Assembly (NCBI GenBank): GCA_017405875.1
Contig: JAFQZM010000021.1
Coordinates: 1-55,875 of the forward strand
Length of the DNA: 55,875 nucleotides
Source of the DNA: a bacterium
GTDB lineage: Bacteria; UBP6; UBA1177
Direction: 5' to 3'
Shown: in pieces, positions 1 through 23,096 of the stretch
Layout: each line of letters starts with the position of its first letter
Numbering within the stretch: the first letter of the stretch is position 1
Translations under genes and position numbers: made by a program
Notes under the pieces: model-generated
Told to the model about the DNA's origin: nothing
The model's input: the letters and a program-made list of their open reading frames with translations, nothing else
The model's database searches: none

Positions 1-25
1 CTAAATTTGAAGACAAAATGATTCC

Positions 26-60
26 GCAACGCAAGGCAACGCAACGCAACGCAACGCAAC
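26..60. repeat. Short tandem repeat of GCAAC
   Basis: The pentamer GCAAC is reiterated seven times here, with one imperfect junction near 35. It lies at the very left edge of the window, upstream of the first lipoprotein gene. The 9-mer CCGCAACGC at its start also occurs in the last codons of the DUF1566 gene ending at 1677, so it may derive from the end of a related gene further left; that is only a guess. Confidence 0.8.
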
Positions 61-147: not shown

Positions 148-1677
148 ATGAAAAAAACCTGTTTGATTTTTGCGATCTTTTTGCTTTTCACTTTTGTAAG
201 TTGCGGCAACTCAAAAAGCGATAACAAAAATGATGAACCCGATACGGGAGAAGCAGTTACTGACGGAGATACATATTCAACAGATACTGAACCCGCAGAC
301 ACAATGCCGGACGATATTTCAGATACGGATGAACTCGGTGAACTCACCTGCAGAAAAGATGAAGATCAGGAGTATTCTTACCTGTCTTTTCCTAATAATG
401 ATTTTACAAGATATGAAATATGCAAAGCCGGATGTGACCAGTCAACCGGGAAATGCAAATCATGGAAAGATCCGTACACTGGAATAGTCTGGTCTCATTT
501 AAAATTAGGAAAATATAATCCGCATTGGGATGAAGCAGTTTCTTACTGCGACAACCTTTCTTTAGACGGATATGATGACTGGAGCCTGCCAACCGTTAAC
601 GACTTGAGAACTCTTATAATAAACTGTCCCGGAACGGAAACAGGGGGAGAATGCAAAATCGGCGAAGGAGACGGCTTGTCCTGTAACAGTAGCGACTGGA
701 CATCGGCGTGTGGTGGCTGCGGTGCAGATAACGGAACCGGAATATACAATAAATTCGGTAGGATAACAACTGGAGATCCTGTATTTTGGTCTTCCTCTAT
801 CGTATCAGGTTCTGGGACCATGGCCTGGGTGGTTAATTTAAGTTCGGCGAAAATATATAATGAGAGGACTAATTGGCATTCTTTCGTCCGCTGTGTCAGG
901 TATTCGATGAACGAAGCAGAAAAATGTGAAGCTGCAGGCGGAAGTTGGAATGAAACAGAAAATACCTGCACAAAGACGACAAACTGTACCGATTTGCCGG
1001 AGAATGCTGAATGGAACGGCGATGATTCCTACACTCAGACTTTTACCGGCGGCATTTGGAATGGAGAAATTTCAACAGAATTCAACGAAGAAGCCGGGAT
1101 ATGCCATTTCAAATGTAAAGAAAATTATTTTTTCAATTCAAATAAATGTTTAAACCCGTGTGATTCGAATCCGTGTAATTCACTTGAAGCTATTACAGAC
1201 AGGACTTGTGTTGCCTACGATTACAAACAATATTCCTGCGGCGGTAAAGATCCGTCAAGCGGTCTCACATGGTCGGCAAAAGCACAACAAGCTATGAATT
1301 GGGATAATGCCGGAACATACTGCGGCAATTTGAGTGAAGACGGACATACCGACTGGAGACTGCCGACAATCAACGAGCTGAGGACGCTTATCCAGAATTG
1401 CAGCAAAAATGAAATGCCGAACGGTTCTTGTGCTGTTAATGATCCGGATTGTCTGGCACTCAGTTGCTGGACATCGGAAACATGCGGTTCTTGTCTTGAT
1501 AGCAACAATAAGGGGCCGTACAGCAAATTCGGTGATACCGATCAGTCCTGGTGGTCTTCCTCTAACAACACTGATGATACAAACTACGCATGGATCGTGG
1601 ATTTCTATAGAGGAAGCGTACATAGACACAAGAAGACTTACGACTCATTTGCCCGCTGTGTCCGCAACGCCGATTAG
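148..1677 (+). CDS. DUF1566-domain lipoprotein with two lectin-like domains
   Basis: This is a 509-residue exported lipoprotein. The N-terminus is a Sec signal ending in a lipobox (FVSC, Cys at about 19), followed by an acidic Asp/Glu/Thr-rich linker to about residue 65. Two DUF1566 domains follow, at roughly 110-250 and 370-507. Each has the hallmarks W(D/N)(E/N)A..YC.NL, (G/H)..DW.LP..N(E/D)LRTLI, a WSSS motif and a closing RCVR. A Cys-rich spacer separates them. DUF1566 is believed to adopt a C-type-lectin-like fold, which suits ligand binding at the cell surface, but no ligand can be inferred. The start is fixed by a GAGG site at 137. The last codons and the 20 nt after the stop recur at 2713 and, on the other strand, at 22166-22209. 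Confidence 0.88.
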   Translation: MKKTCLIFAIFLLFTFVSCGNSKSDNKNDEPDTGEAVTDGDTYSTDTEPADTMPDDISDTDELGELTCRKDEDQEYSYLSFPNNDFTRYEICKAGCDQSTGKCKSWKDPYTGIVWSHLKLGKYNPHWDEAVSYCDNLSLDGYDDWSLPTVNDLRTLIINCPGTETGGECKIGEGDGLSCNSSDWTSACGGCGADNGTGIYNKFGRITTGDPVFWSSSIVSGSGTMAWVVNLSSAKIYNERTNWHSFVRCVRYSMNEAEKCEAAGGSWNETENTCTKTTNCTDLPENAEWNGDDSYTQTFTGGIWNGEISTEFNEEAGICHFKCKENYFFNSNKCLNPCDSNPCNSLEAITDRTCVAYDYKQYSCGGKDPSSGLTWSAKAQQAMNWDNAGTYCGNLSEDGHTDWRLPTINELRTLIQNCSKNEMPNGSCAVNDPDCLALSCWTSETCGSCLDSNNKGPYSKFGDTDQSWWSSSNNTDDTNYAWIVDFYRGSVHRHKKTYDSFARCVRNAD

Positions 1678-1700
1678 CGCACGGTTTCACAAAACAAGGG
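1657..1700 (+). repeat. DUF1566 3'-tail repeat, copy A
   Basis: These 44 nt cover the codons for CVRNAD, the stop codon and the following noncoding CGCACGGTTTCACAAAACAA. Copy B at 2713-2756 matches at 42 of 44 positions. Copy C (minus strand, 22166-22209) keeps the 20 noncoding bases exactly while its coding part carries several silent changes. The noncoding part contains a small GTTT-CACA-AAAC inverted repeat. Confidence 0.9.
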
Positions 1701-1717
1701 GTTTCAATAGATTTCTC

Positions 1718-2566
1718 TTATTTATTTTCTATCAACAGCAGATCCTTCTTCAAATCAAGAGAAAGTATCGTTCCCAACTGCCTTTTCGCAGTATCGCGGA
1801 GTTTCAAAAGCCGCTCTTTTTGAGAGATTTTCTGCTCAATCAGAATAGCGTTATAACTTTCAAGATTTGCAAGAACCAAAAGATGCGGAATATCCGCATA
1901 ATCCCTGATGTTTCCGCTTTTGCCGGGATTATCGTTGCGCCATTCTTTCGCCGTTTTTCCGAAAAGAGCGACATTCAGCAGGTCTGCTTCATCGGCATAA
2001 ACAAAGTTCTGTTGTTCAATAGTGAGATCAGGCAAAAGCAGATTCTCTTTGACAGCATCGGTATGAATCTTGTAATTCAGCTTCGAAATTTCCCGATTCA
2101 GATTCCAGTTGAGTGAAAGACGGCTGTTTTCATCGGATTTGAGACGGCGGTAGTCCTTCATTATATAAAGCTGAAACTCCGGTGAAATCCAAGTGGCGAA
2201 TGACATTGCAATATCGCTGTGGGCGAAAGTCCCGCCGCCGTAACGACCCGACTTCGATACGATACCTTTTGCATTCATTTGCTCAATCCATTTTGTCGGA
2301 GTCATCACAAAACGGTTCAAGCCGGCTTCGTTTTTAACCGCCTCGAATTGCACACGGTTAAAATCAGGATTGTGAAGAATTTCCCAAACAGCGAGAAATT
2401 CAATCGTATTTCTGTTACGCATCCAATTCTGGATAACAAAACGAGGATCATCTTCGTTTCGGTATTTTGCGATATCCGTTAAAGAAAGAAATTCATTTTC
2501 GAAATCCGTCGTATAAATACCGATTTCGATGCCCTGAGCATGAATTGTTTCTGTTACAGTTTTCAT
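1718..2566 (-). CDS. KilA-N domain protein
   Basis: This 282-residue protein has a KilA-N domain at about residues 30-145, recognisable from (R/N)RNTIEFLAVWE near the start of the domain, TPTKWIEQ in the middle, then SGRYGGGTFAHSDIA and FATWISPEFQLYI. KilA-N is a DNA-binding module found in phage antirepressors and in free-standing chromosomal proteins. The C-terminal half (about 150-282) is helical and charged, a form often seen in such free-standing members. A GGAGAG site precedes the ATG. It runs opposite to the lipoprotein gene on its left and lies exactly between two copies of the DUF1566 tail repeat, so it was probably gained, or trapped, by recombination. No phage genes are adjacent. 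The function is unknown; transcriptional control or a defence role are both possible. Confidence 0.8.
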   Translation of the reverse strand: MKTVTETIHAQGIEIGIYTTDFENEFLSLTDIAKYRNEDDPRFVIQNWMRNRNTIEFLAVWEILHNPDFNRVQFEAVKNEAGLNRFVMTPTKWIEQMNAKGIVSKSGRYGGGTFAHSDIAMSFATWISPEFQLYIMKDYRRLKSDENSRLSLNWNLNREISKLNYKIHTDAVKENLLLPDLTIEQQNFVYADEADLLNVALFGKTAKEWRNDNPGKSGNIRDYADIPHLLVLANLESYNAILIEQKISQKERLLKLRDTAKRQLGTILSLDLKKDLLLIENK

Positions 2567-2712
2567 GTTTTCTCTCCAAATTTAAAATCATCAGAACAAT
2601 TTTACAAACAACAAATAATATTTTAATATATTAAGTCAAGTTTTATTTTTTACAATTTATAAAATCTTCAAAAATAAACCTAAGAAATATCAAAGAATGG
2701 AATAAAAGCATT

Positions 2713-2733
2713 TGTGTCCGAAATGCCGATTAG
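2713..2733 (+). pseudogene. Orphan 3' end of a DUF1566 gene
   Basis: Seven codons read Cys-Val-Arg-Asn-Ala-Asp-stop, the exact ending of both DUF1566 lipoproteins in this window. Nothing upstream of them resembles the rest of such a gene: the preceding 140 bases are AT-rich and unrelated. This looks like the remnant of a deleted gene, or the tail carried along by recombination. Confidence 0.75.
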
Positions 2734-2756
2734 CGCACGGTTTCACAAAACAAGGG
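2713..2756 (+). repeat. DUF1566 3'-tail repeat, copy B
   Basis: This direct repeat of 1657-1700 differs at two positions, both in the coding part. The noncoding CGCACGGTTTCACAAAACAAGGG segment is identical. Together with copy A it brackets the KilA-N gene. Confidence 0.9.
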
Positions 2757-2788
2757 CTTAAGATTTTCAGCACACTCTCACAAAAAAA

Positions 2789-2854: not shown

Positions 2855-4246
2855 ATGGTAAAAAAACGCACTTCTTATGTCTGCTCGAACTGCTCCTACA
2901 CTACTCCGAAATGGATGGGGAGATGCCCCGAATGCGGAGAGTGGAATACTCTCGAAGAAAAGGATGAAACTGTCGTAACTGAGCAGAATCACAGGCTTTT
3001 CCAGTCTTCGCCCGATGCGGTATACACACACATTTCAGAGGTCGAAACTACCGACAGTGAAAGGGTGAAAACGGGTTACAAGGAGTTTGACAGGATCTTA
3101 GGCGGAGGCGTCGTCAAAGGGAGTTACAATTTAATCAGCGGACACCCGGGAATAGGAAAATCGACACTCATGCTTCAGATCGCGCTTGAACTTTCGAAAC
3201 AGTGCAAAGTGCTCTATCTTTCAGCTGAAGAGAGCATCACACAGGTCAAAATAAGGTTTGAAAGGCTCGCAGGAAAGCAGGGCTGCGGCAAACTTTTCCT
3301 TTCGAATGAAAGCAACCTCGACAAACTGCGGGCAAAACTCGAGGAAGAGGATTTCGACATCCTTTTCTGCGATTCGATACAGTCGGTCTACTCCCCTTCC
3401 GTCCTCGGGATTCCCGGCTCGGTGAGCCAGATAAAGGAGTGTGCCGTCAGACTTTTAGAGACTGCAAAAAGAAAAGATATCACGGTTTTTGTAGTCGGTC
3501 ACGTCACCAAAAACGGCGAGATCGCAGGCCCCATGCTGCTTGAGCACATGGTTGATTCGGTGCTCATTTTCGAAGGCGATTCGTCGCTCGGCTACCGGGT
3601 TCTGCGCTGCTCGAAAAACCGCTTCGGAGCAACGGATGAGATAGGAATTTTCACGATGACTTCAAACGGTCTGCACGAAGTCGAAAACCCGAGCCAGTTT
3701 TTCCTTTCTGACAATCTCGGAACTATTTCCGGTTCGGCAAGAGCGCTCGTTCTCGAAGGAACGCGCCCCTTTTTAGTCGAAGTCCAGTCGCTCGTCACAA
3801 GTTCCAACCTGCCTCAGCCGCGCCGTGTCGTAACAGGCATCGACAGCGGAAGACTTGCCATGATCTGCGCTATCTTGGAAAAAAGGTGCGACATCTATTT
3901 TTCGAATTTCGATATTTTCGTAAACATCGCAGGCGGACTAAAAATCAAGACTCCGAGCATCGACATGCCGCTTGCGGCCTCGCTCTTCTCGTCTGTTTTC
4001 AATCTTCCGCTGCCCGTCGACTGGGCTTTTGTGGGAGAGATCGGTCTCGGAGGCGAAGTGCGTGAAGTTCCTGGGCTCGACATCATGCTGAAAGAAGGAA
4101 CGAGGCTGGGTTTAAGCAGGATATTCGCTCCTGTTGAGCGCAGCAATAAAGGGAAAAAATATCCCGGCAAAACCGAAATAATCAGAGTCTCACACATCGA
4201 CGAGATCAGGGAACACACCGCTTCGACCAATATTTTCGACCGTTAA
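2855..4246 (+). CDS. radA: DNA repair protein RadA
   Basis: RadA is a RecA-like ATPase that drives branch migration during recombinational repair in the cytoplasm. The 463 residues show the full family layout. A C4 zinc finger lies at the N-terminus (CSNC then CPEC), followed by a Walker A motif GHPGIGKST at about 96-104. The RadA signature KNRFG is at about 253-257, and a C-terminal Lon-protease-like domain carries VFNLPLPVDWAFVGEIGLGGEVR. Length is normal for the family. A GAGG site precedes the ATG. It is transcribed alone, with a 67-nt gap before the next gene, where a separate promoter is visible. Confidence 0.97.
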   Translation: MVKKRTSYVCSNCSYTTPKWMGRCPECGEWNTLEEKDETVVTEQNHRLFQSSPDAVYTHISEVETTDSERVKTGYKEFDRILGGGVVKGSYNLISGHPGIGKSTLMLQIALELSKQCKVLYLSAEESITQVKIRFERLAGKQGCGKLFLSNESNLDKLRAKLEEEDFDILFCDSIQSVYSPSVLGIPGSVSQIKECAVRLLETAKRKDITVFVVGHVTKNGEIAGPMLLEHMVDSVLIFEGDSSLGYRVLRCSKNRFGATDEIGIFTMTSNGLHEVENPSQFFLSDNLGTISGSARALVLEGTRPFLVEVQSLVTSSNLPQPRRVVTGIDSGRLAMICAILEKRCDIYFSNFDIFVNIAGGLKIKTPSIDMPLAASLFSSVFNLPLPVDWAFVGEIGLGGEVREVPGLDIMLKEGTRLGLSRIFAPVERSNKGKKYPGKTEIIRVSHIDEIREHTASTNIFDR

Positions 4247-4313: not shown

Positions 4314-5516
4314 ATGGCTGAACTTCTTGCCCCTGCAGGTAATCCAGAAAAGCTCGTCTGGGCAGATATTTACGGCGCGGATGCTATATATTTCGGTGTA
4401 GACAGGTTTTCACTCCGCTCTTTCGCGGGAAATTTCACTTTAGACGACGCCGCAAAAGCTCTTGAAAGACTCCATAAAAACGGCAAGAAAGGCTACATAA
4501 CCTTGAATATTTATCCTTATTCGGGCGAATACAAAGATCTGGTCGAAACTGCCGGAAACCTTGCCGACTGCAATGCCGACGCATTTATCGTGAGTGATTT
4601 CGGTGTTATCACGGCTCTCAAAAAAGCAGGGCTCAAAGTGCCGCTCCACATTTCGACTCAGGCAAACACCGTTTCGTGGCAGACTGTAAACGCATACTAC
4701 GACTACGGCGCAAAAAGAGTGAATCTGGCGCGCGAACTTTCGTTTGAAAAGATAAAAGAGATTGCAGAAAACAAGTATAAAGAAGCTGAGATCGAAGTTT
4801 TCATCCACGGCGCAGTGTGCTTCAGCATGTCGGGAAGATGCGCGATAAGCGACTGGCTTACCGGAAGAAAGGCGAACCGCGGCGAATGCACACACCCCTG
4901 CCGCTGGAAATACGCAGTTGTCGAAGAAAAACGCGACGGCGAATATATGCCGGTTGCTGAGGACGGACGCGGGTCATACATCTTCAACCCGAAGGAACTC
5001 GCCCTTTTCGACTACGTTCAGCCGCTCAAGGAACTCGGCGTGGACTCCTTCAAGATCGAAGGAAGAATGAAGTCCATCCACTACGTCGCATCGGTCGTTT
5101 CGCTTTACAGAAGGATCCTCGACGGCGAAAATATCCCGCATGAAGAGATAACGAGACTTCTCAACCGCATCAAAAACAGAGGATACTCCACAGGTTTCAT
5201 GAAAGGCGGCGTCACTCCCGACGACTACCAGTTAGGTGGCGACGGCTCCAATTCCGAAGCCGAATTTATCGCCAATATCACCGAAGAAAAGCTAGTCGGC
5301 AAATGTGTTGCCGAGATCAGGAATCACACCGAAGCGGGCGAAACCGTCGAAATTCTTGAACCGAACGGGCACACCAGAAGCTACAAACTTCCGGAGCTAC
5401 TCACCTTCACCGACGGCACTCAGGCACGCGAAGCCAACCACTCGAAATTCATCCTGCTCGAAGGCGATTTTGTGCCTTATTCCATTTTGAGGAGAATCGA
5501 TAATGGCGTGGCATAG
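4314..5516 (+). CDS. Peptidase U32 family protein (TrhP/YegQ-like)
   Basis: This 400-residue protein begins with MAELLAPAGN, typical of U32 family members, and carries the signature ending in GRCAISDWLTGR with the conserved Cys cluster CTHPCRW near residues 190-200. Characterised relatives (TrhP, RlhA) hydroxylate specific pyrimidines in tRNA or rRNA together with a prephenate-dependent pathway; others are annotated as collagenase-like proteases. RNA modification is the better guess, but the substrate is not determined. I chose the ATG at 4314 because a GAGG site (4304-4307) is correctly spaced; an upstream in-frame TTG at 4302 would lie on that site. Its 3' end overlaps the next gene by 14 nt. 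Confidence 0.88.
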   Translation: MAELLAPAGNPEKLVWADIYGADAIYFGVDRFSLRSFAGNFTLDDAAKALERLHKNGKKGYITLNIYPYSGEYKDLVETAGNLADCNADAFIVSDFGVITALKKAGLKVPLHISTQANTVSWQTVNAYYDYGAKRVNLARELSFEKIKEIAENKYKEAEIEVFIHGAVCFSMSGRCAISDWLTGRKANRGECTHPCRWKYAVVEEKRDGEYMPVAEDGRGSYIFNPKELALFDYVQPLKELGVDSFKIEGRMKSIHYVASVVSLYRRILDGENIPHEEITRLLNRIKNRGYSTGFMKGGVTPDDYQLGGDGSNSEAEFIANITEEKLVGKCVAEIRNHTEAGETVEILEPNGHTRSYKLPELLTFTDGTQAREANHSKFILLEGDFVPYSILRRIDNGVA

Positions 5517-5715
5517 GATCATAAAAATGAAGCCGAAAGAGAATTTTTTCTTTCATTTTACGATAGAAAGCTACGAAAATCTGGGGCTTATCTCGACTTT
5601 GGCGAAAGAAAACGGATATTTGATCCTTGACTGCTTTACGACTATGGAAAGCGCAAGTGAGTTCGACCGCGTGATAAACAATGTATTGAAGGAAATGAAG
5701 GCGCGCAATGAATAG
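5503..5715 (+). CDS. Small DUF4911-like protein
   Basis: This is a 70-residue soluble protein resembling DUF4911, a family of about 70 residues with an alternating strand-helix pattern (FHFTIESYENLGLISTLA ... ILDCFT). It overlaps the U32 gene by 14 nt and the following gene by 8 nt, so all three are probably translated together. AGGAG at 5490 is well placed for the ATG at 5503. No catalytic motif is visible. A partner role to the U32 enzyme is an inference from position only. The family assignment is from memory of the pattern and is moderately sure. Confidence 0.65.
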   Translation: MAWHRIIKMKPKENFFFHFTIESYENLGLISTLAKENGYLILDCFTTMESASEFDRVINNVLKEMKARNE

Positions 5716-6283
5716 AAAGTTTTTCGTTTTCATCGTTGTTTTTCTTCTTTTCGCGAACCTTCACGCAGTTCTCAACGACAGAATTTCGGGAAATAAAGTG
5801 CCCTCGCTTTCGCTTATGGTTTCGCTTGAAGAGTCGAATTTTCTCTACAACGCGCCGCTGATTCAGTATCTCAACCTCGATTTCGGTCTCATGGTAAACC
5901 GTTTTCAGGATCCGGGACTTAAATTCGGAATAGACTGGCAGTGGATCGACAGCGAATATGTTGCCGGAACTCTTAAAATAGACGGAATATTCCTCACGAA
6001 CCGTAAATTCAACAGAATATTTTTGGGCGGCGAAGCGGGCGCGACAATATCGGCCGGAGTAAAACTTTCCGGATTCAAAGGTGAATTTTTAACTATCGTG
6101 ACTGCCGATCCGACCGAGACTTCAGATCCCAGAGTAGCGCTTGAACTCAGGCTCGGCGCATATGTCTCTCCGCATGAATCGGTTAACATCTACCTCGCTC
6201 CGGCAGCCGGAAAATATTTTGTTGAAAGGAAAAGTTTTTACTTCAACTTAGTTCTTTCGACTGAAGTTTTCCTCTGGAAATAA
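5708..6283 (+). CDS. Exported barrel-like hypothetical protein
   Basis: The 191-residue product opens with a clear Sec signal peptide (MNRKFFVFIVVFLLFANLHA, cleavage after about 20) and then consists of alternating hydrophobic/polar segments ending in aromatic residues. The last residues (VFLWK) are strand-like with an aromatic near the end. That suggests a small outer-membrane or periplasmic beta-barrel. No known family was recognised. It overlaps the preceding small gene by 8 nt and is followed by the sigma-factor gene after 64 nt. Confidence 0.7.
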   Translation: MNRKFFVFIVVFLLFANLHAVLNDRISGNKVPSLSLMVSLEESNFLYNAPLIQYLNLDFGLMVNRFQDPGLKFGIDWQWIDSEYVAGTLKIDGIFLTNRKFNRIFLGGEAGATISAGVKLSGFKGEFLTIVTADPTETSDPRVALELRLGAYVSPHESVNIYLAPAAGKYFVERKSFYFNLVLSTEVFLWK

Positions 6284-6347
6284 TTTTTTTCGGAATATTT
6301 TTCATTTTTCCGCTGTTTCTTTCGCGTTGTTCATTTCGGGACTGATT

Positions 6348-6899
6348 ATGGAAGAATTACTGAAAGCCAACCTCGACAAAATTTTCAACTACGCGCTTTT
6401 CATCACGGGAAACCGCGACAAGGCGCTCGACCTCATGCAGGATACGATCGTCACGGTGTTATCGAAAAAGCATCTTTACAGAGAGGAGGAGCATTTCAGA
6501 TCGTGGATTTTCAGGATTTTGAAGAACAACTACATCAACAAGGTCAAGCACGACGCGGTAACAGGAGAAATATCGTATTCGGATCTTGCGAAAGATGATG
6601 ACGATCCGGGAATCATCGACTTTCCAGACACCCGCATTTCTCCTGAAGAACTGAGCGATCCGATACTAAAAGAGAGGATCCGTGAAGTTTTTGAAAAAAT
6701 GCCTCCCGAATACCGCGAAGTCATCGTCATGATCCACATCGACGGCTTATCCTACGAAGAGACTGCACAGACTCTCGCGATCCCCGTCGGAACGGTTATG
6801 AGCAGGCTTCACCGCGGCAGGAATTTCCTCAAAAAAGTGCTTGGAAAAGAGGCGGAAGAATTGAATATCGTTACGAAAAAGGAAAGGAAAGATGCTTAA
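6348..6899 (+). CDS. ECF RNA polymerase sigma factor
   Basis: This is a 183-residue sigma-70 family factor of the extracytoplasmic-function type. Region 2 is at about residues 10-75 (ALFITGNRDKALDLMQDT ... FRSWIFRILKNNY). Region 4 is at about 105-165 (MPPEYREVIVMIHIDGLSYEETA, then GTVMSRLHRGR). It lacks regions 1 and 3, as expected for ECF. The ATG at 6348 is preceded by a weak CGGGA site; an upstream TTG at 6327 is less likely. It overlaps the anti-sigma gene by 8 nt, the usual arrangement, so the pair is co-translated. Autoregulation is common in the family, but its target promoters cannot be told from this sequence. Confidence 0.94.
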   Translation: MEELLKANLDKIFNYALFITGNRDKALDLMQDTIVTVLSKKHLYREEEHFRSWIFRILKNNYINKVKHDAVTGEISYSDLAKDDDDPGIIDFPDTRISPEELSDPILKERIREVFEKMPPEYREVIVMIHIDGLSYEETAQTLAIPVGTVMSRLHRGRNFLKKVLGKEAEELNIVTKKERKDA

Positions 6900-7698
6900 G
6901 GGAAAGTGTGATTTCAACGAACTTTTTATCGAACAGTTCGCCGACAGAGAACTTGATTACCTCGAAAGCGCGGAGGTCGCGGCACATTTGAAAGAATGTC
7001 ACGAATGCCGCAGAAAATACGAGGCGATCATCGAAACGAAAAAGATCACTTCGGCATTTGCCGAAAACGAAAAACTTTCGATCATCGAAAAAGAAGGTCT
7101 TTTGAGACTGATAGATCAGAAATCGGAGCAGAAACCGGCACTTATCGAATCAATAAAAAGTCTTTTTCAAAACCGTGCAGCAACTCTCGCCTTCTCTTTT
7201 TTCTCATTCACATGCCTCGTCTTCGCATTCATCTTCGCAATCAACGGAATAGAGAAAAATAACAACATCATAATCGACGAGATAATGACGGCACACACTC
7301 AGGCACTTCCAGACGAATTCGGAAACAGCCAGGCGGCGCAGAATGAACTGAAGGAAAAATTCAAAACTGTGACATTCTCGGAATTTACGAAAAGACCGAA
7401 AATAAGCGGCAGATTCACTTCGATCGCAGCCACTCCGACAGCAAAAATAACCCTTGATTCGAAAGAGGACAATATCCGCGGAACTCTCTTCCTCTCAAAG
7501 CGTAACGAGCAGCTCGAAAAACTTTTTTCTGAAAGCGACTGCCTTATCAAAAAAGACGACATCTGCAAGGCTCGCCACCGCAATGACGGCGGAAAAGAGA
7601 TGATCTACTGGCAGAATTCGGGAAACAACTATCTCATGGTTTCCGACGAGAGCAACGCCGCCGCAAAAATGGTGAAACTCATAAACACCAGTTTTTAA
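6892..7698 (+). CDS. Anti-sigma factor with zinc finger
   Basis: The 268-residue product is a membrane-anchored anti-sigma factor. An N-terminal ZAS zinc finger has the HLKECHECRRKY motif (H-x3-C-x2-C) at about 32-43, which normally holds the cognate ECF sigma factor. One transmembrane segment lies at about 97-120 (TLAFSFFSFTCLVFAFIFAI). A periplasmic domain of about 145 residues follows and probably senses the signal; it matches no family I recognise. The ATG overlaps the sigma gene stop by 8 nt. Confidence 0.9.
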   Translation: MLKGKCDFNELFIEQFADRELDYLESAEVAAHLKECHECRRKYEAIIETKKITSAFAENEKLSIIEKEGLLRLIDQKSEQKPALIESIKSLFQNRAATLAFSFFSFTCLVFAFIFAINGIEKNNNIIIDEIMTAHTQALPDEFGNSQAAQNELKEKFKTVTFSEFTKRPKISGRFTSIAATPTAKITLDSKEDNIRGTLFLSKRNEQLEKLFSESDCLIKKDDICKARHRNDGGKEMIYWQNSGNNYLMVSDESNAAAKMVKLINTSF

Positions 7699-7727
7699 TT
7701 GCAAAAACACTTCACCTGCCCTATAAA
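7699..7727 (+). promoter_or_regulatory. Promoter for the O-methyltransferase gene
   Basis: TTGCAA at 7699-7704 and TATAAA at 7722-7727 are 17 bp apart. They are followed by GGCGGTTTG and a GGAGG ribosome site at 7742, so the leader is very short. Confidence 0.6.
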
Positions 7728-7753
7728 ACGGCGGTTTGTTTGGAGGATTTGCC

Positions 7754-8383
7754 ATGGACGCAAGAACGGCGCAGTATCTCAGGGATTTCATAAAACACGA
7801 TTCCGAATTTTTGGACGAACTCGAAAAATCAAACAGGAGCCGCAACGACATCCAGCCGATGATAGAAATCGAAGTAGGAAAATTTCTCGTTTTTCTCATT
7901 CGGGCGAAGAAGATAAAATCGGTCCTGGAGCTCGGCACAAGCAACGGATATTCGGCAATCTGGATGGCTTCGGCTCTTAAGAAAACAGGTGGAAAGATAA
8001 TCACGATCGAAGGTCACGACCGGATCTTCGCCGAAGCTGAAAAAAACATCGCCACATCGGGATACGCTGACATCATCGAACTTATCCACGGCAAAGCCGA
8101 AGCCGAGACTGCAAAACTTTTAGAAAAAGGGGAAAAATTCGACCTCATCTTTCAGGATTGCGGCAAATATTTGTATCCGATGCTTCTTGAAACGACAGTC
8201 AAACTCTGCAAAAAAGGGGGAATAATCGCAGCCGACGATTCACTTTTCAGAGTGACGGAAACCGTCCGCAGCGGACTTGGCGACTACACCCACGACTACA
8301 ACAGAGCCGTTTTCGCCCACAAAAAACTTTTCAGCACGATTCTGCCGATAGGGCATGGATTGACGCTTAGCGTCAAGATTTAA
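7754..8383 (+). CDS. SAM-dependent O-methyltransferase (COG4122 type)
   Basis: This 209-residue cytosolic methyltransferase is of the caffeoyl-CoA/catechol O-methyltransferase-like class. The SAM-binding motif I is VLELGTSNGYSAIWMA at about residues 56-71, followed by an acidic residue at the end of strand 2 (ITIEG). The motif DLIFQDCG replaces the metal-binding Asp region, and AADDSLF follows. Relatives need a divalent metal and methylate catechol-like hydroxyls or tRNA hydroxyuridine (TrmR). The second possibility is attractive because a U32 hydroxylase-like gene lies 2.2 kb upstream, but that is inference. The start at 7754 is set by a GGAGG site; an in-frame TTG at 7736 precedes that site. 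Confidence 0.86.
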   Translation: MDARTAQYLRDFIKHDSEFLDELEKSNRSRNDIQPMIEIEVGKFLVFLIRAKKIKSVLELGTSNGYSAIWMASALKKTGGKIITIEGHDRIFAEAEKNIATSGYADIIELIHGKAEAETAKLLEKGEKFDLIFQDCGKYLYPMLLETTVKLCKKGGIIAADDSLFRVTETVRSGLGDYTHDYNRAVFAHKKLFSTILPIGHGLTLSVKI

Positions 8384-20847: not shown

Positions 20848-21936
20848 CTATTTTTTTCTACTTTTCGATTTTTTTGAGAGTGATTTTTCAATCGTGCTTG
20901 TTTCAGGCAGGATATTTTTCGCAGCGGGTATGATGTTTGCTAGTTCATAAGTCGATATTCCAACAGGTTCTCTGCTTTTTTCCACTGTCCACTGGGCTAC
21001 GACATCGTTTTTTTCACTGCAAATCAAAAGTCCGATAGTTTCTTTGTCAATATCTTCTTTTATCAAATGATCCACTGCACTGCAGTAGAAATTCAGCTTG
21101 CTTACGAATTCCGGCTGAAATTTGACTACTTTTAGTTCGACCACGATATAACAGCGCAGTTTGAGGTTATAAAACAGCAGGTCGCATTCGTATTCATCGC
21201 CGTTGACGACAAAAGGAACATGGCTTCCGACAAAGGCAAAACCTTTCCCGAGTTCCAATAGAAATTTTGTCAGATTTGTTTCCAAGGCTTTGTGAAGATC
21301 TTTTTCTTCGTAGTCCTCGCGCAGGCTCACAAAATCAAGTTTATATGTATCTTTCAGGATCTGTTTTGCGTATTCGCTGTCGTTTTTCGGCATCGTCAGT
21401 GTGAAATTGTTCACGGTATTTCCATGCGTTTCAAAGAATTTCGTTTTCATCATGTTAACAAGCATGCCGCGGCCCCATCCGTTTTCCTTAGTCTTTTCAA
21501 TGAAGAAAAGAGCCTCTTCCAAACTTTTTGCCCGGGTAAATATTTCCACATGATGCCGCCAAGGAATTATAAAAAGAATCTTTTCCAATTCGTCACCAAG
21601 CTGGTGACGAATTCCCGATTCTGCACCAAGCTGGTGCAATTTTTCAGAATAAAACAGATAAAACCGCTTCATGTATTTTAAATTAGTTTCGGAAAAACCT
21701 TCCGAGTCAGGAAAATCCGACCTCAGATCGCGGCTTAAATTTTCAAAAAAATGGGAGCCGTATTTTGCATCCAGCCTTTTATTGCAGATATCTTTGCCGA
21801 TATTCCAGTATAAAATGAGCATCTCCTCGTTTACGGCAATAGAAGCCTTTATCTGCGTGGCGCGGATATCTTTTTTAAGTTGAACGATCCAGTCTCTGTA
21901 TTCTTTATTTTTCTGAAAAGACAAATCTTTTTTCAT
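20848..21936 (-). CDS. PDDEXK nuclease domain protein (DUF1016/YhcG)
   Basis: This 362-residue protein is a DUF1016/YhcG-type member of the PDDEXK nuclease superfamily. The N-terminal winged-helix part (YWNIGKDI, FSETNLKYMKRFY) is followed by IIPWRHHVEIFTRAK. The C-terminal nuclease core has FVGSHVPFVVNGDEYECDLLFYNLKLRCYIVVELK (quoted here in two parts: Asp in ECDLLFY, then VVELK), which supply the expected D and ExK. The role is unknown; it is often found near restriction systems and transposons. Residues about 118-137 (HQLGAESGIRHQLGDELEK) are an insert encoded by two palindromes. The ATG at 21936 has a GAGG site at proper spacing. Confidence 0.85.
   Translation of the reverse strand: MKKDLSFQKNKEYRDWIVQLKKDIRATQIKASIAVNEEMLILYWNIGKDICNKRLDAKYGSHFFENLSRDLRSDFPDSEGFSETNLKYMKRFYLFYSEKLHQLGAESGIRHQLGDELEKILFIIPWRHHVEIFTRAKSLEEALFFIEKTKENGWGRGMLVNMMKTKFFETHGNTVNNFTLTMPKNDSEYAKQILKDTYKLDFVSLREDYEEKDLHKALETNLTKFLLELGKGFAFVGSHVPFVVNGDEYECDLLFYNLKLRCYIVVELKVVKFQPEFVSKLNFYCSAVDHLIKEDIDKETIGLLICSEKNDVVAQWTVEKSREPVGISTYELANIIPAAKNILPETSTIEKSLSKKSKSRKK
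21587..21638. repeat. Two in-frame palindromes inside the DUF1016 gene
   Basis: The first palindrome (21587-21613) has perfect 12-bp arms, AATTCGTCACCA and TGGTGACGAATT, around AGC. The second (21622-21638) has perfect 7-bp arms, TGCACCA and TGGTGCA, around the same AGC. Each encodes HQLG on the gene strand, giving the tandem HQLGAESGIRHQLGDEL. Confidence 0.9.
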
Positions 21937-22165
21937 TATCACAATCCTCGCAATTGAACCGTGATATTCTATATCAACATTTTGAAATTTACAAATTTTT
22001 ATTTAAAAAATTTTTAAATACCAAATATGTGGTTTAAATTACACGGAACAAAAACAGAATTTGTTTGTAAATTTTGTAAATATCACTGTTATGTCTCAAA
22101 AATTATTGTCGGAGCGCGGGCGGCCCACCTGCAACAACTTCCCAAAAATCTCTTGAAAAATCAAC

Positions 22166-22209
22166 CTTTTGTTTTGTGAAACCGTGCGTTAATCAGCGTT
22201 TCTGACGCA
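22166..22209 (-). repeat. DUF1566 3'-tail repeat, copy C
   Basis: On the minus strand this reads the codons for CVRNAD, TAA and then CGCACGGTTTCACAAAACAA, identical over those 20 noncoding bases to copies A and B some 20 kb away. The coding part differs from copy A by silent substitutions, and the stop is TAA, not TAG. Confidence 0.88.
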
Positions 22210-23037
22210 TCGGACATCATCAAGATCATTTTTAAAGTCGATGTCTATCTCTCCAGAACTGAAACCAACGCGCCATGCATAATCAGGATCGCCTGAATTA
22301 GTAGAGGAAGACCAAAGCATAATACCGTCATGATCCCCTAATTTGCTGTAATAAGAACTACAAGGTTTGTAGTAGCATGAACAATGGTTTCCGCAATAAC
22401 TGAACAGACAGTCCGGATCAGCGACAGCACAAGAACCTCCAGTTTGCAAAACGGAACAATTTCGGATAAGCGTCCTTAATTCATTTATATTCGGAAGATG
22501 CCATCCGCTTATCCCGCCTTCTGAATATTTTTCACAATATTCAACAGCTTCGTTCCATTCCATATAATTCGATGACCTTGCCGACCAAATCAGGCCGCTT
22601 ATAGAATCTTGGCATGGTGTACCGGAAAAAGGACTGCATTCCAGAATAGCATTTCCGTAGTCCGTTTCCGCATTTGTATCAGGTATGTAATCTGTCGTAA
22701 ATAACGAACCGCATTCTATAGTGTCTCCGTAGTCAGCGTATGCGTCTTCATCCGATATGGAATCTGCTGTATCTACTGCATCATCATTCTGTTCCTTATT
22801 TGTCTCTTCATCATAAATATCTGAATTGTGGTTCTCTTGAGTTTCATCCGTATCATCCGAGTCGGATTTATCCGAAGGCTCAGTATTTTCAGGTTCATCA
22901 TCTTCGGTTTGCTGCGTCTCTGCGGCAGCAGTATTATCAAGCGTGTCGGAACTTTTACAGTTTTTCGAACTGCCGCCGCAACTGACGACAAAAATCAAGG
23001 CTGCTAAAAGTATTAAAATTACTAAAAGTTTCTTCAT
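22189..23037 (-). CDS. DUF1566-domain lipoprotein
   Basis: This 282-residue lipoprotein has signal and lipobox FVVSC, a long acidic low-complexity linker (about 25-115) and one C-terminal DUF1566 domain (about 140-282). The domain carries WNEAVEYC, GWHLPNINELRTLI, LWSSS, YAWRVGF and ends RCVRNAD like the gene at 148. The Cys-rich loop CGNHCSCYYKPC suggests disulfides and export. The start is the ATG at 23037, just behind a GGAG site; a longer reading to 23082 would cross a palindrome and the ribosome site. The hairpin at 23051-23072 ends a few bases before that site and might modulate translation. Confidence 0.85.
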   Translation of the reverse strand: MKKLLVILILLAALIFVVSCGGSSKNCKSSDTLDNTAAAETQQTEDDEPENTEPSDKSDSDDTDETQENHNSDIYDEETNKEQNDDAVDTADSISDEDAYADYGDTIECGSLFTTDYIPDTNAETDYGNAILECSPFSGTPCQDSISGLIWSARSSNYMEWNEAVEYCEKYSEGGISGWHLPNINELRTLIRNCSVLQTGGSCAVADPDCLFSYCGNHCSCYYKPCSSYYSKLGDHDGIMLWSSSTNSGDPDYAWRVGFSSGEIDIDFKNDLDDVRCVRNAD

Positions 23038-23050
23038 TTTTTTCTCCATG

Positions 23051-23072
23051 GAGACGTGCCCGGGCGCGTCTC
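23051..23072. repeat. GAGACG palindrome upstream of lipoprotein start
   Basis: Arms GAGACGTGCCC and GGGCGCGTCTC form a 22-bp inverted repeat with one G-T pair and no spacer. The type TAGAGACG...CGTCTCTA is, to my knowledge, a scattered palindrome in many bacterial genomes. Here it sits in the 5' leader of the DUF1566 gene, ending about 3 nt before its Shine-Dalgarno site. Confidence 0.75.
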
Positions 23073-23096
23073 TACCAATCAAACAAAAACCGCAAA

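Follow-up and report, generated by a model that had tools for sequence, protein, structure and literature searches.

Integron cassettes, including those of integron remnants (CALIN), consist of one gene and one site each, form arrays that vary among relatives and carry defence cargo, and the R box of their attC sites reads GTTRRRY with a RYYYAAC partner. Integrative elements that insert at gene 3' ends, such as tRNA-targeting prophages and ICEs, keep the gene end intact on one side and leave a displaced copy of it on the far side. The small modules of Acinetobacter plasmids (pdif/XerCD) have short sites with clear XerC and XerD arms, an Xer site being built of two 11-bp arms around a 6-bp spacer, alternate in orientation and hold no recombinase of their own; dif modules contain toxin-antitoxin genes and variable 6-bp spacers (PMC13141974).

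The locus compared with these systems lies in a window of 55,875 nucleotides (the whole stretch of DNA that was analysed) from a 2.5-Mb rumen genome of the candidate phylum UBP6 (G000), in which the 20-mer CGCACGGTTTCACAAAACAA was found exactly at 1678-1697(+), 2734-2753(+) and 22169-22188(-), with 0.04 occurrences expected by chance in shuffles at up to 3 mismatches. As the initial annotation had noticed, this noncoding 20-mer is identical in the three copies, A, B and C, while the CVRNAD codons preceding it carry silent changes (TGT GTC CGC AAC GCC GAT, TGT GTC CGA AAT GCC GAT and TGC GTC AGA AAC GCT GAT, respectively). Its placing of all three behind DUF1566 genes held for A and C but not for B, which no Lcl_C domain precedes; in the window, the genome scan gave Lcl_C matches only at 466-900, 1246-1665 and 22201-22611. 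Copy B was found to be a displaced 3'-end fragment, lying about 150 bp from where a reversed KilA-N gene starts and shortly upstream of radA. The last codons of the DUF1566 gene before copy A, RCVRNAD and the stop, form the left part of site A. Alignment of the copies gave a conserved unit longer than the 20-mer, of about 63 bp (consensus TGYGTCCGNAACGCYGATYAGCGCACGGTTTCACAAAAYAANNNNTTGAKTTTTCAAGAGAT), running from TGYGTCCGNAACGCYGATYAG through CGCACGGTTTCACAAAAYAA and four variable bases to TTGAKTTTTCAAGAGAT, with the core columns TTTCACAAAA mostly 94-99% conserved and the flanks diverging (position logo and alignment; Table 1). The contig starts (window 1-60) within a GCAAC short tandem repeat, so that the first array lacks its left end. 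The site search found no second site behind the YhcG gene of the window, a member of a family that forms cassettes elsewhere.

Table 1. Sites, cassette, neighbouring genes and palindromic repeat, with positions in the window unless another region is named.
Feature	Position	Strand	Remarks
Site A	1656..1718	+	core GGTTTCACAAAACAA 1683-1697; variable spacer GGGG 1698-1701; right arm altered
Site B	2712..2774	+	orphan copy; displaced DUF1566 3' end (..ICVRNAD, stop), core 2739-2753, spacer GGGC
Site C	22148..22210	-	core 22183-22169; directly behind DUF1566 gene
DUF1566/Lcl_C lipoprotein-like gene, two Lcl_C domains	148..1677	+	open reading frame; Pfam PF07603, E 5e-34
KilA-N cassette, core to core 1056 bp	1683..2739	+	95% identical copy in G009 (L089 6427-7452)
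KilA-N domain gene, reversed relative to the sites	1718..2566	-	Pfam, E 3e-16; PADLOC PDC-S22 (candidate defence family), E 3e-126
radA, chromosomal right flank	2855..4246	+	homology with G012 starts at the site; G012 has a ToxN cassette in this place
YhcG/DUF1016 PDDEXK nuclease gene, downstream of site C	20848..21942	-	Pfam PF06250, PF17761
DUF1566/Lcl_C gene ending RCVRNAD, stop	22189..23082	-	Pfam PF07603, E 2e-19
REP-like palindrome	L022 8872-8926; L102 7060-7115; L110 8999-9054; window 22110-22140		

The genome and its relatives (among them G009, G011, G012, G013 and G017) were found to hold further copies with variable flanks. There were 16 places in the genome with at most 3 mismatches to the 20-mer, against 1 for a reversed control, and a sequence-only profile model matched 22 times in this genome, 33 times in G017 and 17 times in G009. 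The element was present in 13 of the 15 genomes of the genus (112 matches), with G014 lacking sites in the profile search, and was found by the same type of search in none of the 13 other UBP6 phylum genomes; the viral contigs searched with the core pattern gave no match. The named matches were to rumen and abomasum metagenome genomes of UBP6 and relatives, and the assemblies are MAGs in which some arrays end at contig ends. Some copies do lie directly after DUF1566 stops, as had been supposed, but most are not behind DUF1566 genes.

What lies between the copies was mapped from regions fetched around them in G000 and its relatives. Neighbouring copies less than 4 kb apart were in the same orientation in every case (40/40), with a median spacing of about 1.1 kb. 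Of these 40 intervals, 25 held a single gene of 100 aa or more, and of the genes in the intervals 18 were co-oriented with the sites and 23 opposite to them. Cargo identified by Pfam and PADLOC comprised KilA-N, ORF6N, RhuM-Fic, YhcG/DUF1016 PDDEXK, ToxN/AbiQ, AbiEi/AbiEii, Abi_2/AbiD, PIN, AAA_14-DUF4143 and DUF4209 genes, and the cassettes are, judged by gene family, mostly of predicted phage-defence type; DUF3825 and an ExbB-ExbD-TonB set were also found. The latter set, flanked by two sites (L103 6399-8164), does not look like defence cargo. Also widespread is a GC-rich palindrome of REP type (GCGGGCGAGCCGCCCGCGCTCCGACAA and variants), which makes up the body of gene-free mini-cassettes.

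The cassettes at the conserved loci radA, POT transporter and DUF58 were seen to differ from one species to another. The radA locus holds KilA-N in G000, KilA-N, ORF6N and AAA_14 in G009, and DUF4209 and ToxN in G012, while in G017 an array separates radA from the peptidase gene that comes right after it in the window; the POT transporter locus holds ToxN and YhcG in G000 and AAA_14 in G009. KilA-N, ToxN and YhcG cassettes recur at other places or beside other neighbours with their ends at the site, and homology between the KilA-N cassette of the window and its G009 copy likewise stops at the sites. Cassettes common to several species are 95-96% identical, including their noncoding DNA, against 89-92% for radA and POT. 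The DUF1566 gene with its site is 95% identical between G000 and G013 (radA 83%), and AbiE is 91% identical between G017 and G011 (comparison value 83%). Set against 83-92% for radA and POT (83-91% for radA), a cassette identity of 95-96% indicates transfer of cassettes between species. The recombination site at gene 3' ends that the initial annotation had proposed as one option is borne out in that the copies bound exchangeable cassettes and that blocks of homology have their ends in the element.

At the DUF58 locus, G011 has a Sel1-repeat gene (Sel1 by Pfam, placed with DUF1566 genes by loose clustering), one site and DUF58, and G000 has the same gene, a site, an ORF6N fragment, a second site and DUF58. 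The single G011 site was found to be a hybrid: its left part equals that of the first G000 site and its right part that of the second, the change from one to the other falling between core positions -2 and +8. In this one clean event, which the comparison reads alike as gain or loss, the crossover lies no more than about 10 bp from the 20-mer. Averages of marker linkage suggest a crossover at roughly -5 to +8; only one event is clean, and the spacer behaves independently. Core positions 16-18 vary independently of both flanks and the only marker linked to the right flank is position 8, to their left, so the cut points are not fixed to exact bases.

The DUF1566 genes, which are of surface-protein type, appear themselves to supply the left part of the site. 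Fifteen copies adjoin a co-oriented gene of the DUF1566 cluster and are fused in frame to its end, and 14 of these 15 genes end RCVRNA[DEKN] or nearly so. Orphan copies, with no gene before them, still read VRCVRNAD and a stop or similar, the RCVRNAD residues being matched at 4 or more of 7 positions in 32 of 66 orphans compared with 1 of 3960 control windows; the stop has been lost in about one third of orphans, whereas every copy fused to a DUF1566 gene with an RCVRNAD-type ending retains it. Such retention of DUF1566 codons is expected if the site arose as a DUF1566 3' end and was displaced behind a cassette. At A and B the arrangement is that of integrative elements, with the target gene intact and a displaced 3' fragment beyond the cassette, and the element is probably a cassette recombination site that uses DUF1566 3' ends as landing pads. 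It differs from integrative elements in having one gene per element without its own integrase, and in that its target is a multicopy protein family. Five gene-free mini-cassettes (54-57 bp) have only the core and right part in common, so the part derived from DUF1566 is not a strict requirement.

From the sites, arrays, exchanged and transferred cassettes, homology ends and one hybrid junction that sequence comparison brought out, we consider it likely that a gene-cassette system uses the element as its directional recombination (attachment) site. A cassette would usually comprise a single gene, lying in either direction, and one terminal copy of the site, and would be gained, lost or swapped by crossover inside the core of about 20 bp, so that arrays come to read site-gene-site-gene-site. 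The primary landing pads would be DUF1566 3' ends, perhaps the original target; since the gene's last codons double as the left part of the site, insertion would leave that gene intact and push a copy of its 3' end beyond the cassette. We infer that a site-specific recombinase acts on these sites, and that it does so in trans.

For that enzyme XerC and XerD, acting in trans, are the leading candidates, since they are the only site-specific recombinases detected in the site-rich G009 (97% complete), where they were the sole tyrosine recombinases and no serine recombinase was found. Neither an integron integrase nor a serine recombinase was found in G000, serine recombinases in the genus were present only in G012 and G017, and no site-specific recombinase gene was seen in the mapped arrays. 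With the enzyme so named, the cassette site would be a one-armed relative of dif (XerC-like arm TTTCACAAAA, degenerate right arm) recombined by host Xer, after the models of Acinetobacter plasmid dif modules and Xer-exploiting phages. The dif of the genus reads CTTC[G/A]CATAACATATATTATGTAAA; its chromosomal location is L250 about 178-205 (contig C23), 4 kb from xerC in this genome. Comparison of the left arm of the element, TTCACAAAAC, with TTCACATAAC in the dif of this genome gives 9 of 10 positions identical, against 8 of 10 in the other genomes, and the dif modules too have toxin-antitoxin genes and variable 6-bp spacers (PMC13141974). However, an arm match this good over all registers is estimated to arise by chance about 1 time in 10 and the right arm does not resemble an XerD arm, and for these reasons we hold the Xer version to be possible but doubtful. 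The dif modules also alternate in orientation and lie on plasmids, whereas the sites here are always direct, chromosomal and extended into DUF1566 codons, and the position of the spacer does not coincide neatly with the DUF58 crossover.

The other explanations are less likely than Xer. Shuffling between copies of a dispersed intergenic repeat of 60 bp by RecA, with no dedicated recombination, would fit the direct repeats, which favour deletion and duplication, and crossover points that are not fixable to one base. We regard it as an unlikely account of the whole, because core columns are 94-99% conserved while the flanks diverge, copies are found at many non-homologous places both behind DUF1566 ends and elsewhere, the five mini-cassettes have just the core and right part in common, and the common stretch is close to the minimum length on which RecA can act. 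RecA recombination between repeats of about 60 bp could nevertheless explain part of the later shuffling.

An integron remnant (CALIN) with very divergent attC sites would account for single-gene arrays with a site at one end, no integrase, and defence and toxin-antitoxin cargo, but appears very improbable. The initial annotation had already seen no match to attC, and rightly so, as nearly all copies have GTT followed by TCAC instead of RRRY (position logo) and no conserved fold of attC type. No TIGR02249 match over the cut-off for an integron integrase was obtained in 19 genomes of the family, the matches in the genus being Xer-like. The copies are scattered over many loci, and the conservation of the core is concentrated on the right-hand side of the mapped crossover, unlike integron sites. 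The GTTT-CACA-AAAC inverted repeat that had been pointed out did not prove to be a conserved structure. RNAalifold returned no pairs for the alignment of copies, and the hand-named stem pairs hold in 44-79% of orphan copies, with little compensatory change. The related suggestion of an RNA 3' end used by the whole DUF1566 family was not upheld either, given that most copies are not behind DUF1566 genes, no fold is conserved and an Rfam search with the element gave no match; a folded RNA element was rejected.

This genome has 132 Lcl_C/DUF1566 domain matches, an extreme expansion. It also has two diversity-generating retroelements (DGRs), at L060 (contig C14) 2822-6030 and L061 (C46) around 4940-8240 on the minus strand, each with a reverse transcriptase, a template repeat rich in AAC, and variable repeats of DUF1566 type that end in RCVR and a stop. 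That the site is an IMH-adjacent homing signal of such variable DUF1566 genes was at first a strong lead, sharing protein family, RCVR end and genome, with one site-bearing DUF1566 gene adjoining a DGR reverse transcriptase, but it was rejected and is now barely credible, as the template and variable repeats seen (C14, C46) run from RCVR and the stop into other sequence without the element, many of the differences between site-bearing DUF1566 genes and the templates are not at adenines (by reading), and the genes that most copies bound are unrelated.

Defence genes pass from one bacterium to another, though the means by which single ones are mobilised are often obscure; here predicted defence cassettes form a genus-wide, chromosomal and interchangeable set. 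The cassettes have a sharp common boundary and no visible integrase, which makes the enzyme that moves them directly testable, and the site can serve as a search tool, the genes found between a pair of copies being candidates for a role in defence. Alongside integrons and dif modules, this may be a further class of gene-cassette platform, chromosomal and without its own integrase, using host Xer or an unrecognised recombinase and DUF1566 3' ends as pads, and stockpiling predicted phage-defence genes in an uncultured phylum; we put this forward tentatively, with slightly less belief than doubt. Our literature search found no account of integrons in UBP6 or of DUF1566 with gene cassettes.

A solo tyrosine integrase, about 400 aa in length (67-99% identical), was also found in 10 of the 15 genomes of the genus (L237 4063-5259, L238-L246). 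It was rejected as the enzyme of the sites, being absent from the site-rich G009 and from G011, present in the siteless G014 and adjacent to Cys-rich repeat genes. It often lies at contig ends beside divergent genes of this Cys-rich type, with a GTGTAAAAANTGGTGTAATTTTTG motif upstream, and may shuffle surface protein genes.
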